A stretch of DNA of 64,000 bases from Herbaspirillum aquaticum (GTDB taxonomy: Bacteria > Pseudomonadota > Gammaproteobacteria > Burkholderiales > Burkholderiaceae_D). The stretch lies in NCBI RefSeq assembly GCF_002213425.1, contig NZ_NJGV01000002.1, forward strand, positions 124,001-188,000, given 5' to 3'. The notes beneath the pieces were generated by a model. The model did no database searches. It was given only the letters and a program-made list of their open reading frames with translations, and was not told the DNA's origin. The first letter of the stretch is position 1. The number at the start of each line of letters is the position of its first letter. Positions 2-26,211 of this stretch are shown here, in pieces. The position numbers and the translations under genes were made by a program.

Positions 2-1090
2 ACGACCCCGCAGGCCGCTGCCGCAGCCGCTGCGCCCTCGGAAGCAGAAGAGGCGACCTGGAACGACGTCATGCCGGTCGATACCCTGGGCCTGGAAGTG
101 GGCTACCGCCTCATCCCGCTGGTGGACAAGGGGCAGGGCGGCGAACTGCTCAAGCGCATCAAGGGCATCCGCAAGAAGTTCGCTCAGGAGGTCGGTTTCC
201 TCTCGCCGCCGATTCACATCCGCGACAACCTGGAACTGAAGCCCTCGGCCTACCGCATCACCTTGAAGGGTGTGGAAGTGGGCAATGGTGAGGCGCATGC
301 CGGCCAGTACCTGGCCATCAATCCGGGCATGGTGACCGGTCCGCTGCCGGGCATGATGACCTCCGATCCTGCCTTCGGCCTGCCGGCCGTGTGGATTGAC
401 AGCAGCCTGCGCGAACAGGCTTCCACCATGGGTTATACGGTGGTCGATGCCGGTACCGTGGTGGCGACTCACCTCAATCACCTCATCACCACCCACGCGG
501 CCGAGCTGCTGGGACGCCAGGAAGTGCAAAGCCTGCTGGATCACCTGGCCAAGGAAGCCCCCAAGCTGGTGGAAGACCTGGTGCCCAAGATGCTGCCGCT
601 GGGTACGCTCCAGAAGGTCTTGCAGAACCTCTTGCTGGAAGGCGTGCATATCCGCGATATGCGCACTATCATCGAAACATTGGCCGAACACGCTGCCCGC
701 ATCCAGGATCCGACCGACCTGACGGCGATTGTCCGCATCGCGCTGGGCCGTGCCATCGTGCAACAGATTTTCCCGGGCGAGAACGAGCTGGCCGTCATGG
801 CGCTCGATTCCAAGCTCGAACGCCTGCTCATGCAGGCACTGCAGGCCAGCGGCGACACCGGCGGCATCGAGCCGGGCCTGGCCGATTCGCTGGTGCAGCA
901 GACCGAAATGGCGGCGCAGCGCCAGGAACAGATGGGCCTGTCGCCCGTGCTGCTGGTCGGCGCACCGCTGCGGACCTTGCTGGCGCGCTTCCTGCGCCGC
1001 GCCATGCCGCAGTTGCGCGTGCTGTCGCACGCTGAAGTACCCGAGTCGAAAACGATTAAAGTTACCAGCCTAGTTGGAGGGCAAGCATGA
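2..1090 (+). CDS. flhA: Flagellar export gate protein FlhA, C-terminal half (5' end outside window)
   Basis: The reading frame is open from base 2, so the gene begins before the window. About 362 residues remain, roughly half of the usual 690-700. They match the soluble cytoplasmic domain of FlhA, which forms the nonameric ring of the type III export gate and docks chaperone-substrate complexes; the N-terminal membrane helices are missing here. Recognisable stretches include the LGLEVGYRLIPLVD start of the cytoplasmic domain and a region around HLNHLITTHAAELLGRQE. An Ala-rich linker sits just before it. The stop overlaps the start of flhF as ATGA, which suggests translational coupling. Confidence 0.96.
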   Translation, partial: TTPQAAAAAAAPSEAEEATWNDVMPVDTLGLEVGYRLIPLVDKGQGGELLKRIKGIRKKFAQEVGFLSPPIHIRDNLELKPSAYRITLKGVEVGNGEAHAGQYLAINPGMVTGPLPGMMTSDPAFGLPAVWIDSSLREQASTMGYTVVDAGTVVATHLNHLITTHAAELLGRQEVQSLLDHLAKEAPKLVEDLVPKMLPLGTLQKVLQNLLLEGVHIRDMRTIIETLAEHAARIQDPTDLTAIVRIALGRAIVQQIFPGENELAVMALDSKLERLLMQALQASGDTGGIEPGLADSLVQQTEMAAQRQEQMGLSPVLLVGAPLRTLLARFLRRAMPQLRVLSHAEVPESKTIKVTSLVGGQA

Positions 1091-2571
1091 ACGTCAAGAA
1101 ATTTATCGCCAATTCTTCTCGCGAGGCCTGGCGCCAGGTTCGCGAGGCGCTTGGCCCGGATGCCGTCATTCTCTCCAACCGCAATATTCCAGATGGGGTG
1201 GAGATCCTGGCCATGGCCAACGAGGACATGACCACCCTGGTGGCGCCGACCGGTGCGCGCGACCCCAACGGCCGTGTGCAGGCGGCTTCCTTGCAGCAGC
1301 AGTCCGGCGCGCCGGCTGCGCAGGCCAAGCGTCCGGCGCTGTTGTCCTCGCCGCTGGCCCAGCAGCCGGCCCGCGCGGTGCGTCCCGAGAACGCGCCCTT
1401 GCTGGACCAGCCGGCCCATGGCCGCGCACCGGTTCGTGCAGCCGAAGCCGCCCCGGCCAGCGATGCCCGTGTCTGGCGCAGCCGCCGCGCGGAACAGGAT
1501 GCCGCCCGTGCCGCCTCGGCACAGCAGGCGCAGGAGTCGGGCGACCAGGAAATGCGTCCGCGTTCGGCCCTGCCTGAATTCGATGGCAAGGATTACGACG
1601 AAATCCTGTCGGAAGTCATGAGCGAGATCCGCTCCATGCGCGGCGTGCTGGAAACCCAGCTGGCCGAGATTTCCTGGGGTGGCACGCAAAAGCGCGATCC
1701 GCTCAAAGGCATCGTCCTGAAAGAAATGCTGGCGGCCGGTTTCTCGGCCAGCCTGTCGCGCCTGATTACCGAAAACCTGCCGGCCAACTCCAAGTCGCAG
1801 GACATCATGTTCTGGGTCAAGTCGGTGCTGGCACGCAACCTCAATACCCTGGCCAACGAAAACGAACTGCTGGAAAACGGCGGCGTCTTCGCCCTGGTCG
1901 GCCCCACCGGCGTGGGCAAGACCACCACCACTGCCAAGCTGGCAGCGCGCTGCGTGATGCGCCACGGCTCCGGCAAGCTGGCCTTGATCACCACCGATGG
2001 CTACCGTATCGGCGGCTACGAACAACTGCGCATCTACGGCAAGATCCTGGGCGTGATGGTGCACTCGGTCAAGGATGAGACCGACCTGCGCATCGCCCTG
2101 GAGGAGTTGAAGGGCAAGCACACCGTGCTGATCGATACCGCCGGCGTGGGCCAGCGCGACCAGATGGTGGCCGAGCAGGACGCCATGCTGGCCGGTGCCG
2201 GCGTGGACATCAAGCGCCTGCTGTGCCTGAACGCCACCGCCACCGGCGGTACCTTGAACGAAGTGGTGCATGCTTATTCGAGTTCGGGCCTGGCCGGCTG
2301 CATCATCACCAAGCTGGACGAAGCCGCCACCATCGGCAACGTGCTGGACGTGGTGATCCGCCACAAGCTCAACCTGCATTACGTGGCCAATGGCCAGCGC
2401 GTGCCCGAAGACCTGCACGTGGCCAACAAGCTCTACCTGGCCGACCGTGCCTTCAAGCAGAAGCGCGAAACTGCCCCTTTCGAATTCCAGGAGGGTGAGT
2501 TGCCGGGCGTGATCGGACCTACTGCCATGTCCATGAATGACCGCGGACTGCGTGAGGTGAGCTTTGGCTAG
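1087..2571 (+). CDS. flhF: Flagellar biosynthesis SRP-like GTPase FlhF
   Basis: A 494-residue SRP-family GTPase that in other bacteria sets the place and number of flagella. Residues about 60-160 form a low-complexity Ala/Arg/Gln-rich basic domain. The NG domain follows: G1 P-loop GPTGVGKTTTT near residues 272-282, TTDGYRIGGYEQLRIYG near 302-318, DTAGVGQRD (G3) near 350-358 and TKLDEA (G4) near 408-413. All key nucleotide-binding motifs look intact. The start overlaps the flhA stop (ATGA) and the end overlaps the next gene by 8 bases, so flhA-flhF-flhG-fliA form one transcription unit. Confidence 0.97.
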   Translation: MNVKKFIANSSREAWRQVREALGPDAVILSNRNIPDGVEILAMANEDMTTLVAPTGARDPNGRVQAASLQQQSGAPAAQAKRPALLSSPLAQQPARAVRPENAPLLDQPAHGRAPVRAAEAAPASDARVWRSRRAEQDAARAASAQQAQESGDQEMRPRSALPEFDGKDYDEILSEVMSEIRSMRGVLETQLAEISWGGTQKRDPLKGIVLKEMLAAGFSASLSRLITENLPANSKSQDIMFWVKSVLARNLNTLANENELLENGGVFALVGPTGVGKTTTTAKLAARCVMRHGSGKLALITTDGYRIGGYEQLRIYGKILGVMVHSVKDETDLRIALEELKGKHTVLIDTAGVGQRDQMVAEQDAMLAGAGVDIKRLLCLNATATGGTLNEVVHAYSSSGLAGCIITKLDEAATIGNVLDVVIRHKLNLHYVANGQRVPEDLHVANKLYLADRAFKQKRETAPFEFQEGELPGVIGPTAMSMNDRGLREVSFG

Positions 2572-3409
2572 TTACGATATCGACCAGGCAGCTGGCCTGC
2601 GCCGGATGCTGGAGCGCCCGGTGCCCAGGCTGTTCACCTTCTTCTCCGTGCTGGGAGAAGAGGAAAAGAGTGCGATGCTCATCAATCTGGCAGCGTCCTT
2701 GTCCCAGGCCAAGCACAGTGTGCTGGTGGTCGATGGCGACGTCGCCACGACGGGCTTGCTGACCCGTATCGGCTTGCGTCACGATGTGGCGACCCTGCAG
2801 GAAGTGGCGCGCATGGAGCGCCCCATGGTGGAAGCCACGCGGCGCTTGCCGGAAGGCTTTTCGATGGCGCGCATCGCTCGCCGTACGGTGCCCTCGGCCA
2901 CCGATCCCCACGCGGGCCGTCTGGCCGAGATCTTCGACAGCCTCATCGAGCAGGCCGAGATCACCCTGGTCAATGGCGTGCTGGCGCGCGACCTGTCGCT
3001 GCCGGTGCCGACCATGGAAATGGGCGAGATCGTGATCCAGGTGTCGACCACGGCCTCGTCGATCAAATCCGCCTATGTGCTCCTGAAGAGCCTGAGCGAC
3101 CGGATCGGCCGCCGTCCCTTCAGTCTCATCGTCAACGATGCTACCGAAGCCGAAGCCCGTACCGTCTACGCCAACATGGCCCAGGCGGCCAGCCGTTATC
3201 TTGCCGCCCAGTTGAATTTCATCGGGGCCATCCCGGCTGACGATCATATTCGCCGCGCTACCGGGCAGGGCCGGGCGGTGATGGACGTGTTTCCTTTCGC
3301 CGGTGCCGCGCTGGCATTCCAGCGCTTGTCCAAGCGCTTCACGGAAGGTCCGGATGCGGCGCGCAGCGCATACGGCATGGCCACCGACGGTGCCAGTCTG
3401 GGAGTGTGA
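2564..3409 (+). CDS. flhG: FlhG/FleN-like MinD-family protein with decayed Walker A
   Basis: A 281-residue protein in the position expected for FlhG, the MinD-like partner of FlhF. The N-terminal DQAAGLR (residues 7-13) matches the DQAxxLR motif by which FlhG stimulates the FlhF GTPase. The deviant Walker A, normally KGGxGKT, is degraded: the aligned stretch reads SVLGEEEKSAMLINLA, so the signature lysine and most glycines are gone although K35-S36 remain. LVVDGD (54-59) resembles the following strand. The only in-frame start after the upstream stop at 2558 is TTG at 2564, with a GTGAGG-type ribosome site before it. It may have lost ATPase activity while keeping the FlhF-activating helix. Confidence 0.8.
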   Translation: MASYDIDQAAGLRRMLERPVPRLFTFFSVLGEEEKSAMLINLAASLSQAKHSVLVVDGDVATTGLLTRIGLRHDVATLQEVARMERPMVEATRRLPEGFSMARIARRTVPSATDPHAGRLAEIFDSLIEQAEITLVNGVLARDLSLPVPTMEMGEIVIQVSTTASSIKSAYVLLKSLSDRIGRRPFSLIVNDATEAEARTVYANMAQAASRYLAAQLNFIGAIPADDHIRRATGQGRAVMDVFPFAGAALAFQRLSKRFTEGPDAARSAYGMATDGASLGV

Positions 3410-3414
3410 CGTGC

Positions 3415-4152
3415 ATGTATAACGTCAAGGGAAAGAAGGGCAAGAACGACGTGCTGGAGCAGCATGCGCCGCTGGTCAAGAAACTGGCGCATCAGCTCAA
3501 GGCCAAGCTGCCCCCCAGCGTAGAGGTGGACGACCTGATCCAGGCCGGCATGATGGGCCTGCTCGACGCCGTCAACCGCTACGAAGAAACCCATGGCGCG
3601 CAGTTCGAGACCTATGCCGTGCAGCGTATCCGGGGCGCCATGCTGGACGAACTGCGCAGCAGCGACTGGCTGCCGCGCAGCATCCGCCAGAATGCCCGCA
3701 AGGTGGAAGAGGCCATGCAGAGCCTGCTGCAGCAGCTGGGCCGCCAGCCGCAGGAGGCGGAAGTAGCCCAGCACATGAAGATCAGCCTGACCGAATACCA
3801 GGCGTTGCTCGCCGATTGCGGCGGCCACCAGTTGATCTATTACGAGGATTTCCACGACGACGATGGCGGCCATGAGCACTTCCTGGACCGCTACCAGGCT
3901 GGCCAGGGCGAGGATGATCCGCTGCAGAGCCTGATCGACGGCGGTTTCCGGGAAGCGGTGGTGGATTCGATCAAGGCTTTGCCCGAGCGCGAGCAGCTGC
4001 TCATGGCCCTGTACTACGAGCAGGAAATGAACCTGAAGGAAATCGGTGCCGTCATGGGCGTGTCCGAATCCCGGGTGTGCCAGCTGCACAGCCAGGCGAT
4101 CTCGCGCATGCGCTCTTATCTGCGCGAACATTCATGGAGCGGGGTGGCCTGA
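3415..4152 (+). CDS. fliA: Flagellar sigma factor FliA (sigma-28)
   Basis: This 245-residue sigma factor directs RNA polymerase to late flagellar promoters. Region 2 is seen in DDLIQAGMMGLLDAVNRYE and the FETYAVQRIRGAMLDELR stretch, and region 4 in LPEREQLLMALYYE followed by the SESRVCQLHSQAI helix. An in-frame GTG at 3406 would have its GGGAG only one base away; the ATG at 3415 has GGGAG (3400-3404) at a proper spacing and is chosen. Sites matching its known consensus lie upstream of flgM, flgK and fliC in this window. Its anti-sigma factor FlgM is encoded just downstream on the other strand. Confidence 0.96.
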   Translation: MYNVKGKKGKNDVLEQHAPLVKKLAHQLKAKLPPSVEVDDLIQAGMMGLLDAVNRYEETHGAQFETYAVQRIRGAMLDELRSSDWLPRSIRQNARKVEEAMQSLLQQLGRQPQEAEVAQHMKISLTEYQALLADCGGHQLIYYEDFHDDDGGHEHFLDRYQAGQGEDDPLQSLIDGGFREAVVDSIKALPEREQLLMALYYEQEMNLKEIGAVMGVSESRVCQLHSQAISRMRSYLREHSWSGVA

Positions 4153-25206: not shown

Positions 25207-26211
25207 CTAATCTCCTTGAAAGCTTTCCGGTGTTTCTTGATGGGTGATGGACAGCAGTTTTTCAACGCGCAATGCGTATTGGCCATTGGACTGGCCGTAG
25301 CTGCATTCCATCACCGGTACGCCGTCAACCTGTGCCTCGACGGTCGTATTGGTCTGCAGCGGAATGACGTCGCCGACCTGCATGTGCAGCAGATCGGTGA
25401 AATTGACTCGGGCGGTGCCGAAATTGACGATCAGTTCGACCTCGGCGGTCTGGATCTGCTGCTTCATCAGGCGGATCCAGCGCTTGTCCACTTCCAGTGC
25501 CTCGCCCTGCATGCTGCTGGTGAGGCGGTCACGTACCGGCTCGATCATCGAGTAGGGCGTGCAGATGTGGATTTCGCCCGACACCGGCCCCAGCTCGACG
25601 GTGAAGGTGGTCGAGACCACCACTTCGTTGGGCGTGGCGATGTTGGCGAACTGCGTATTCATTTCCGAGCGAATGAATTCGAATTCGATCGGATAGATCG
25701 GTTCCCACGACTTGGCGTAGGTCTCGAAGGTGATCTCCAGCACGCGCATGATGATGCGCTGCTCGGTGGGCGTGAATTCACGGCCTTCGATGCGGGTGTG
25801 GAAGCGGCCGTCGCCGCCGAACATGTTGTCGACCAGCATGAACACGAACTGCGGGTCGAACACCACCAGCCCGATGCCGCGGAAGGGCTTGATGTGGACC
25901 AGGTTCAGGTTGGTCGGCACCACCAGGTTGCGGATGAATTCGCTGTACTTGGACACCTTCACCGGACCGACCGAAATCTCGGCGGTGCGGTGAATGAAGT
26001 TGAACAAGCCGATGCGGAACAGACGCGCGAAACGCTCGTTGATGATTTCCAGCGTGGGCATGCGCCCGCGCACGATGCGTTCCTGCGTGGCCAGGTTGTA
26101 GGTACGTACCGTACCAGGAGCTTCTTCGACGATTTTTTCTTCGTCTTCATCTCCCGTCACGCCCTTCAAAAGGGCATCGACTTCTTCCTGTGATAGAAAA
26201 TGCTCGGCCAT
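25207..26211 (-). CDS. fliM: Flagellar switch protein FliM
   Basis: A 334-residue switch protein. The N-terminal CheY-P-binding peptide is present (FLSQEEVDALLKG, residues about 4-16). The middle domain contains ERIVRGRMPTLEIINERFAR and the GGDGRFHTRIEGREFTPTE region; the C-terminal SpoA domain includes VELIVNFGTARVNFTDLLHM. It connects chemotaxis signalling to motor direction. It begins 29 bases after fliL. Confidence 0.97.
   Translation of the reverse strand: MAEHFLSQEEVDALLKGVTGDEDEEKIVEEAPGTVRTYNLATQERIVRGRMPTLEIINERFARLFRIGLFNFIHRTAEISVGPVKVSKYSEFIRNLVVPTNLNLVHIKPFRGIGLVVFDPQFVFMLVDNMFGGDGRFHTRIEGREFTPTEQRIIMRVLEITFETYAKSWEPIYPIEFEFIRSEMNTQFANIATPNEVVVSTTFTVELGPVSGEIHICTPYSMIEPVRDRLTSSMQGEALEVDKRWIRLMKQQIQTAEVELIVNFGTARVNFTDLLHMQVGDVIPLQTNTTVEAQVDGVPVMECSYGQSNGQYALRVEKLLSITHQETPESFQGD

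Follow-up and report, generated by a model that had tools for sequence, protein, structure and literature searches.

A degenerate FlhG in Herbaspirillum aquaticum that retains the FlhF-activating helix and may function independently of ATP

The FlhG locus and its altered ATPase motifs

The window analyzed in this study is a stretch of 64,000 nucleotides from Herbaspirillum aquaticum (RefSeq assembly GCF_002213425.1, contig NZ_NJGV01000002.1, positions 124,001 to 188,000 of the forward strand), in which a flagellar locus with the gene order flhA-flhF-flhG-fliA contains a gene for an unusual FlhG protein (Table 1). FlhG is usually regarded as an ATPase, and its cycle of ATP-driven dimerization as one of the factors that set flagellar number. 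It is given as an ATPase in a 2025 review (PMC12826062), and a table from 2022 lists KGGVGKS for FlhG and KGGVGKT for FleN (PMC9178275). The window protein matches PF01656 (CbiA/MinD/ParA; E 1.6e-6), and a sequence search of the PDB returned FleN (5j1j; 7.4e-17) as the top hit and FlhG (4rz2) at 2.6e-9. In the loci of the relatives, flhF was found in the flank of 135 of 137 and fliA in the flank of 131 of 137.

In an alignment with FleN, the residues S28-V-L-G-E-E-E-K35-S36 of the window FlhG stand at S-G-K-G-G-V-G-K-T. As stated in a preliminary description of this DNA, the signature lysine of the deviant Walker A motif and most of the P-loop glycines are gone: the position of the lysine is occupied by L30, and of the three loop glycines only G31 is kept, the other two being replaced by glutamate. 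The KGGxGK[ST] motif of the FlhG ATPases and of the MinD/ParA family is thus absent from the protein. The further statement that the P-loop has been lost holds for the deviant Walker A motif but is too sweeping, since the P-loop lysine and the Ser/Thr position survive as K35 and S36. That an alignment might place a canonical Walker A elsewhere in the protein, a possibility raised at the same time, is ruled out, as neither GK[ST] nor G....GK[ST] occurs anywhere in the 281 residues.

Other ATPase motifs have changed as well. Switch II reads NGVLAR where DTAAGI is expected, with N137 at the position of its aspartate, and the C-terminal GxLxFFxERL segment is not present, the protein ending in TDGASLGV. 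A membrane-targeting sequence of FlhG has been reported at the C-terminus. The pattern FF.[EQ][RKQ] occurs within the last 60 residues in 29 of 30 FlhG proteins from other orders, as compared to none of 137 from the order of H. aquaticum, and a related tail, [FL][MVFAY].[RH][LV], was found in 31 of these 137 loci. The enhancer motif DQAAGLR and the neighboring FlhF had both been described as intact, which is borne out by the sequences; FlhF retains its G1 (GPTGVGKTT), G3 (DTAGVGQR) and G4 (TKLDE) motifs.

The predicted structure of the window FlhG, a model also called for in the preliminary description, is closest to FleN/FlhG and has the MinD-type SIMIBI fold. The enhancer region forms a helix (residues 8-16), and a strand (22-28) leads into a long helix (32-48) that starts at E32, leaving a loop of only residues 29-31. 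A canonical protein of a different order (L154, alignment A3; mean predicted local distance difference test score 79) served as control; its corresponding strand spans residues 18-24, and its helix begins only at K31, the P-loop lysine, which is equivalent to K35. The earlier start of the helix indicates that the phosphate-binding turn is predicted to have been converted to helix in the window FlhG, in a model computed without ligand.

Table 1. Coordinates in the window of the flagellar genes and of the FlhG features discussed in the text
Feature	Position	Strand	Remarks
flhF	1087..2571	+	SRP-type GTPase; PF00448 2.6e-33; TIGR03499 283 bits, cut-off 174
flhG, degenerate P-loop	2564..3409	+	TTG start, 281 aa plus stop
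enhancer helix motif DQAAGLR (residues 7-13)	2582..2602	+	kept as DQA..LR in 163/164 order genomes
former P-loop SVLGEEEKS (residues 28-36)	2645..2671	+	aligned to FleN SGKGGVGKT
former switch I DGDVATTG (residues 57-64)	2732..2755	+	replaces DADLGLAN
former switch II NGVLA (residues 137-141)	2972..2986	+	replaces DTAAG
Y171-K175, retained helix	3074..3088	+	K175 aligned with K177 of G. thermodenitrificans FlhG (reported FliY-binding site)
N204	3173..3175	+	aligned with R207 of the reported FliY-binding site of G. thermodenitrificans FlhG; changed
Y212	3197..3199	+	aligned with F215 of the reported FliY-binding site of G. thermodenitrificans FlhG; conservative
fliA, sigma-28	3406..4152	+	open reading frame as listed; NF005413 321.7 bits, cut-off 201
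fliM	25207..26211	-	PF02154 1.3e-68; N-terminus with SQEEVDALLKG, EIDAL-type segment

No second DQA-type FlhG was found in a search of the H. aquaticum genome for MinD/ParA-type proteins. Six other such proteins were matched, five of which contain KGGVGK[ST], lack DQAxxLR and look like MinD, ParA, a BcsQ-like protein, Mrp and another ParA-like protein, while the sixth, L144, resembles a tyrosine kinase. The presence of a second, canonical FlhG in this genome was therefore rejected. L144 (C25:88330, outside the window) is a tyrosine-kinase-like ParA relative with SGRSEGRS at the expected GKS/GKT, and a membrane protein near it looks like an exosortase.

Distribution and evolution within the order

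Of the 195 genomes searched in the GTDB family of H. aquaticum, 169 gave a match to FlhG (E<=0.001), including weak ones that are possibly other MinD relatives. In the order, 179 of 300 genomes had a match. The gene was read in part of these genomes and in two named Cupriavidus records, which gave 175 rows and, after the removal of repeats, 164 genomes. Kept outside this count were the unrelated L245 and L246, the rows from other orders and from second flagellar systems, and 14 named Herbaspirillum loci. Most of the order rows were found with the window protein as query and are biased to its like, and the search was repeated with a canonical profile (A3). Among the 30 loci read from this second search were GK[ST]-bearing relatives and a distinct canonical type, and none of the DQA-type genes carried the strict motif; additional order matches of the canonical type (G378, G282, G318 and G432 are examples) lie outside the loci read. 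For comparison, we used the 29 best-scoring FlhG loci from a search of 77 genomes of the class, plus FleN of Pseudomonas aeruginosa.

The loss of the P-loop motif, noted in the preliminary description for this one gene, is real but not confined to it: the strict motif KG..GK[ST] is missing in all 164 order genomes. GK[ST] is present in 31 of them, the signature lysine in 11, and both lysines together with GK[ST] in 7. Likewise, the switch I pattern D.D.G..N was found in 0/164 order genomes versus 29/30 elsewhere, and the flhF-linked FlhGs of other orders of the class have the full motif in 30/30 and DQA..LR in 21/30. The ATPase motifs differ widely between the families of the order. Among the 76 of the 164 genomes that belong to the family of H. 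aquaticum, none has GK[ST] and 56 have [DE][KR] at the P-loop lysine. Judged from these sequences, the replacement of the P-loop is beyond chance, because Herbaspirillum shows this replacement throughout the genus and much of the family has a related motif.

A tree of 139 FlhG rows, inferred under LG+G4 with the P-loop columns excluded (a quick search, with long branches), places a single change of the strict motif on the branch leading to a clade that comprises 105 rows from this order (support of 100 in the SH-aLRT, the SH-like approximate likelihood ratio test). The tree shows seven changes of GK[ST] and six of the signature lysine, and both the full motif and the enhancer helix are present in L149, the nearest row outside the clade. 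Because of these numbers and the position of L149, the strict motif is, on this tree, lost once and the lysines and glycines repeatedly. An early and single loss of the signature lysine was rejected, since the lysine is still present in 11 genomes and changes six times. We also rejected a joint loss of the C-terminal tail and GK[ST]: the tail occurs in 14 of 18 rows with GK[ST] and in 17 of 119 rows without it, but the independent pairs on the tree lend it no support (5 pairs, median p 1).

The replaced loop is held by strong purifying selection and is not drifting. In 16 Herbaspirillum sequences, the ratio of nonsynonymous to synonymous substitutions (dN/dS) is 0.098 for the whole flhG gene and 0.006 for residues 29-37, the lowest of nine regions tested, which argues against decay of the loop. 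The proportion of nonsynonymous differences in this segment (0.019) equals that of the enhancer helix; the proportion of synonymous differences (0.74, nine codons counted) is near saturation. Sequencing error or decay is disfavored both by the dN/dS values and by the flhG genes of 14 named Herbaspirillum records, which are 98 to 81 percent identical.

An FlhG of another type, in most cases with SSPxxGVT or GAT, was seen in genera g13, g15 and g28 of the same family (L118, L225, L226, L228, L229, L232 and L234-L236), several of the genomes having an FlhF open frame of more than 800 codons. The tree places its four rows of this type with family f30, and the type was perhaps acquired through horizontal transfer. 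In genus g5, the matches to the window-type FlhG contain an internal stop in two genomes (L127 in G004 and L128 in G135), and in seven others only a canonical second-system FlhG was found at 1e-15.

Partners of FlhG and the explanations considered

The enhancer helix of FlhG acts without ATP. Its glutamine serves as a co-catalytic element on FlhF (PMC12826062). Furthermore, FlrA binds only the ATP dimer of FlhG, whereas FliM and FliY of other bacteria bind it without nucleotide (PMC11236974; PMC12327844), in the case of FliM through its N-terminus (PMC11236974). In FlhG of Geobacillus thermodenitrificans, residues K177, R207 and F215 are crucial for FliY binding (PMC12327844; the arginine is numbered 277 in places and appears as R207E in another, and 207 was adopted here). 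Mapped through the alignment with 4rz2, these residues correspond to K175, N204 and Y212 of the window FlhG. K175 is kept in 162 and Y171 in 163 of the 164 order genomes, the position of Y212 is Tyr or Phe in 151, and position 204 is occupied by Asn in 133 and by Arg in 19. As aligned, the lysine of the reported C-ring surface is kept in the window FlhG, the aromatic residue is conservative and the third residue is changed. On the side of the C-ring, the EIDAL-type segment of the window FliM is presumably the FlhG-binding site, also serving CheY.

The preliminary description had suggested a permanent FlhF activator without an ATPase cycle. The lost Walker A motif, the intact helix, the intact FlhF and the lack of a second DQA-type FlhG all fit an FlhF activator without this cycle, but a role restricted to the activation of FlhF is probably too narrow, because Y171 and K175 are nearly invariant and K175 lies at the position of K177.

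A search of the H. aquaticum genome for the transcriptional partner FleQ (PF06490, 1e-5) gave no match. In the search of the class, 31 of 77 genomes passed the family cut-off of 22 bits, and 25 of 76 genomes from other orders reached 40 bits, a line chosen after the fact. FlhD is present in the H. aquaticum genome and in 109 of the 300 order genomes, and it is matched weakly in 2 of 76 genomes from other orders; a replacement of FleQ by FlhDC was rejected as a general cause, since no more than these 109 order genomes have FlhD. We take Burkholderia glumae to belong to the same order. Its FlhF is polar and required for normal flagellar placement, and fliA is transcribed together with flhBAFG (PMC3885665); the FlhF side therefore works in such a bacterium.

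We consider it probable that the window protein and its relatives represent an ATP-independent FlhG, in which the activation of FlhF and the loading of FliM would have been kept while the restraint of FleQ by the ATP dimer was lost. In the alignments, the residues of the ATP-free functions are kept, at least partly, and the ATP-dimer function is here without its motif and without FleQ. One can envisage that the FlhG monomer binds FliM/FliN and presents its DQAxxLR glutamine to FlhF-GTP dimers located on nascent basal bodies, and that this contact switches FlhF off and admits the C-ring. The ATP-dimer arm, which binds FleQ/FlrA, may have become dispensable in a FleQ-less ancestor of the order, in which the strict motif would have been lost once, to be followed later and repeatedly by the lysines and the remaining glycines. 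A structural helix, with K35 and the preceding acidic residues at its N-terminus, probably takes the place of the nucleotide.

Several observations weigh against an ATP-independent FlhG as outlined here. N204 differs from the Arg/Lys found in the G. thermodenitrificans protein and in 29 of 30 FlhGs from other orders. With regard to FleQ, 27 of 300 order genomes pass the 22-bit cut-off (best score 37.1 bits), and among the 29 genomes from other orders with an intact FlhG, 21 reach 40 bits and 8 stay below. FlhD, in turn, was not found in at least nine of the listed order genomes with an FlhG match. K35 and S36 persist and could still contact a nucleotide, and ATP binding may persist in some members of the order, given the genomes that retain GK[ST] (31), the signature lysine (11) or both lysines (7). 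Finally, the signature lysine was lost several times (six changes) rather than once.

The persistence of K35 and S36 leads to an alternative that we regard as unlikely, namely that a nucleotide is still bound by an unconventional site formed by these and other residues, the protein cycling slowly or serving as a nucleotide sensor. The P-loop lysine is preceded by D or E in 52 of the 76 rows from the family, in line with the [DE][KR] seen in 56, the first switch I aspartate is kept in 128 of 137 loci, and deviant forms such as RGGVGTT of BcsQ exist (PMC9178275). However, two of the three loop glycines have become acidic, the loop is predicted to be helical and the switch II aspartate is replaced by N137, and other branches of the same clade lack the lysine altogether while keeping the enhancer helix.

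It is also rather improbable that a constitutive, ATP-free FlhG dimer restrains FlhDC or another regulator, with numerical control achieved by another route. The signature lysine, which reaches across the dimer in MinD-type proteins, is lost in the window FlhG; we know of no contact between FlhG and FlhDC, and FlhD was missing from the listed genomes mentioned above. What speaks for such a dimer is that the whole fold is predicted to be kept, that FlhD is present in the H. aquaticum genome and that in monotrichous species the master regulator is a target of FlhG/FleN (PMC12826062). Relaxed selection, by which the ATPase domain would be a decaying remnant carrying only the enhancer helix, would agree with the wide variation of the motifs among families but is very improbable in view of the retained length and fold of the domain, the near-invariant Y171 and K175, the low dN/dS of the gene and above all of the replaced loop, and the matches in 169 of 195 family genomes, weak ones included.

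The sequence data suggest that Herbaspirillum and its relatives can do without the ATP cycle that is usually regarded as central to FlhG. If an ATP-independent FlhG is indeed present in Herbaspirillum, Cupriavidus and most of the order, the activation of FlhF and the loading of the C-ring would need no ATP there, and a natural comparison would be at hand that could test the purpose of the FlhG ATP cycle. Caution is also called for in annotating the flhG genes of this order as ATPases or antiactivators. In the literature searched, which largely omits subscription papers, we found no report that members of this group have a degenerate FlhG.

A second FlhG type, related systems and the flhF-flhG junction

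Some genomes of the order contain a second FlhG type, with KGGxGKT and with DADLGLAN or a near form of it, but without DQAxxLR. Among the 14 genomes read, the strict motif was present in 14/14 and DQA..LR in 0/14, and FleN of P. aeruginosa is likewise without DQAxxLR. The only row without both the helix motif and Walker A is L077, with HQASGLQ, so that at most one of the 208 rows (164 + 14 + 30) appears to have lost both. We tentatively propose, as an idea that we find plausible without being convinced of it, that FlhG consists of two separable devices, the FlhF-activating helix and the ATP switch, which can be lost in either direction. On this view, most of the order would operate its flhF-type flagellar system with a non-ATPase FlhG that has the helix, and FleN-type proteins and the second FlhG type would be those with the switch alone. 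The purpose of the ATP cycle would accordingly lie with the transcriptional partner and not with the placement of flagella.

The canonical ATPase-type FlhG belongs to a second flagellar system in some of the order genomes (L205, L207-L210, L227, L230, L231, L233 and L237-L239; regions L247-L249). In regions L247-L249 it adjoins a divergent flhF, the product of which keeps a G1 motif (GPAGAGKT, GPSGAGKT and GPSGSGKT), and flhA and fliM were recognized in two of the three regions and fliK in all three. No flhF lies in the flank of L070 and L106.

Compared to known systems, the window FlhG resembles FlhG/FleN/YlxH in its fold and in its synteny with flhF and fliA, an arrangement also present in the P. 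aeruginosa record. It shares with 4rz2 the DQAxxLR helix, and it may have part of the C-ring surface in common with FlhG/FleN/YlxH. It differs from all of these in having no deviant Walker A, DADLGLAN, DTAAGI or FFxER tail. The P. aeruginosa FleN (5j1j) is the opposite case, keeping these four elements and lacking DQAxxLR. The defining KGGxGK[ST] of the MinD/ParA ATPases is absent from the window FlhG, whereas five of the six other such proteins matched in the same genome keep KGGVGK[ST]. TadZ/CpaE are pilus-positioning ParA relatives with atypical ATPase sites and a role in polar positioning, but with a different system and different domains. The BcsQ of the 2022 table, which we take to be the E. 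coli protein, and McdA have other cargo and, unlike the window FlhG, keep the loop glycines. They are similar to it in belonging to the same superfamily and having an altered Walker A (RGGVGTT and SGGQGKT; PMC9178275).

At the junction of the two genes, the TTG start of flhG overlaps the end of flhF by 8 bases (2564-2571). A candidate TTG start lies at the equivalent place in most flhG loci of the family, and its recurrence suggests that flhF and flhG are translationally coupled.
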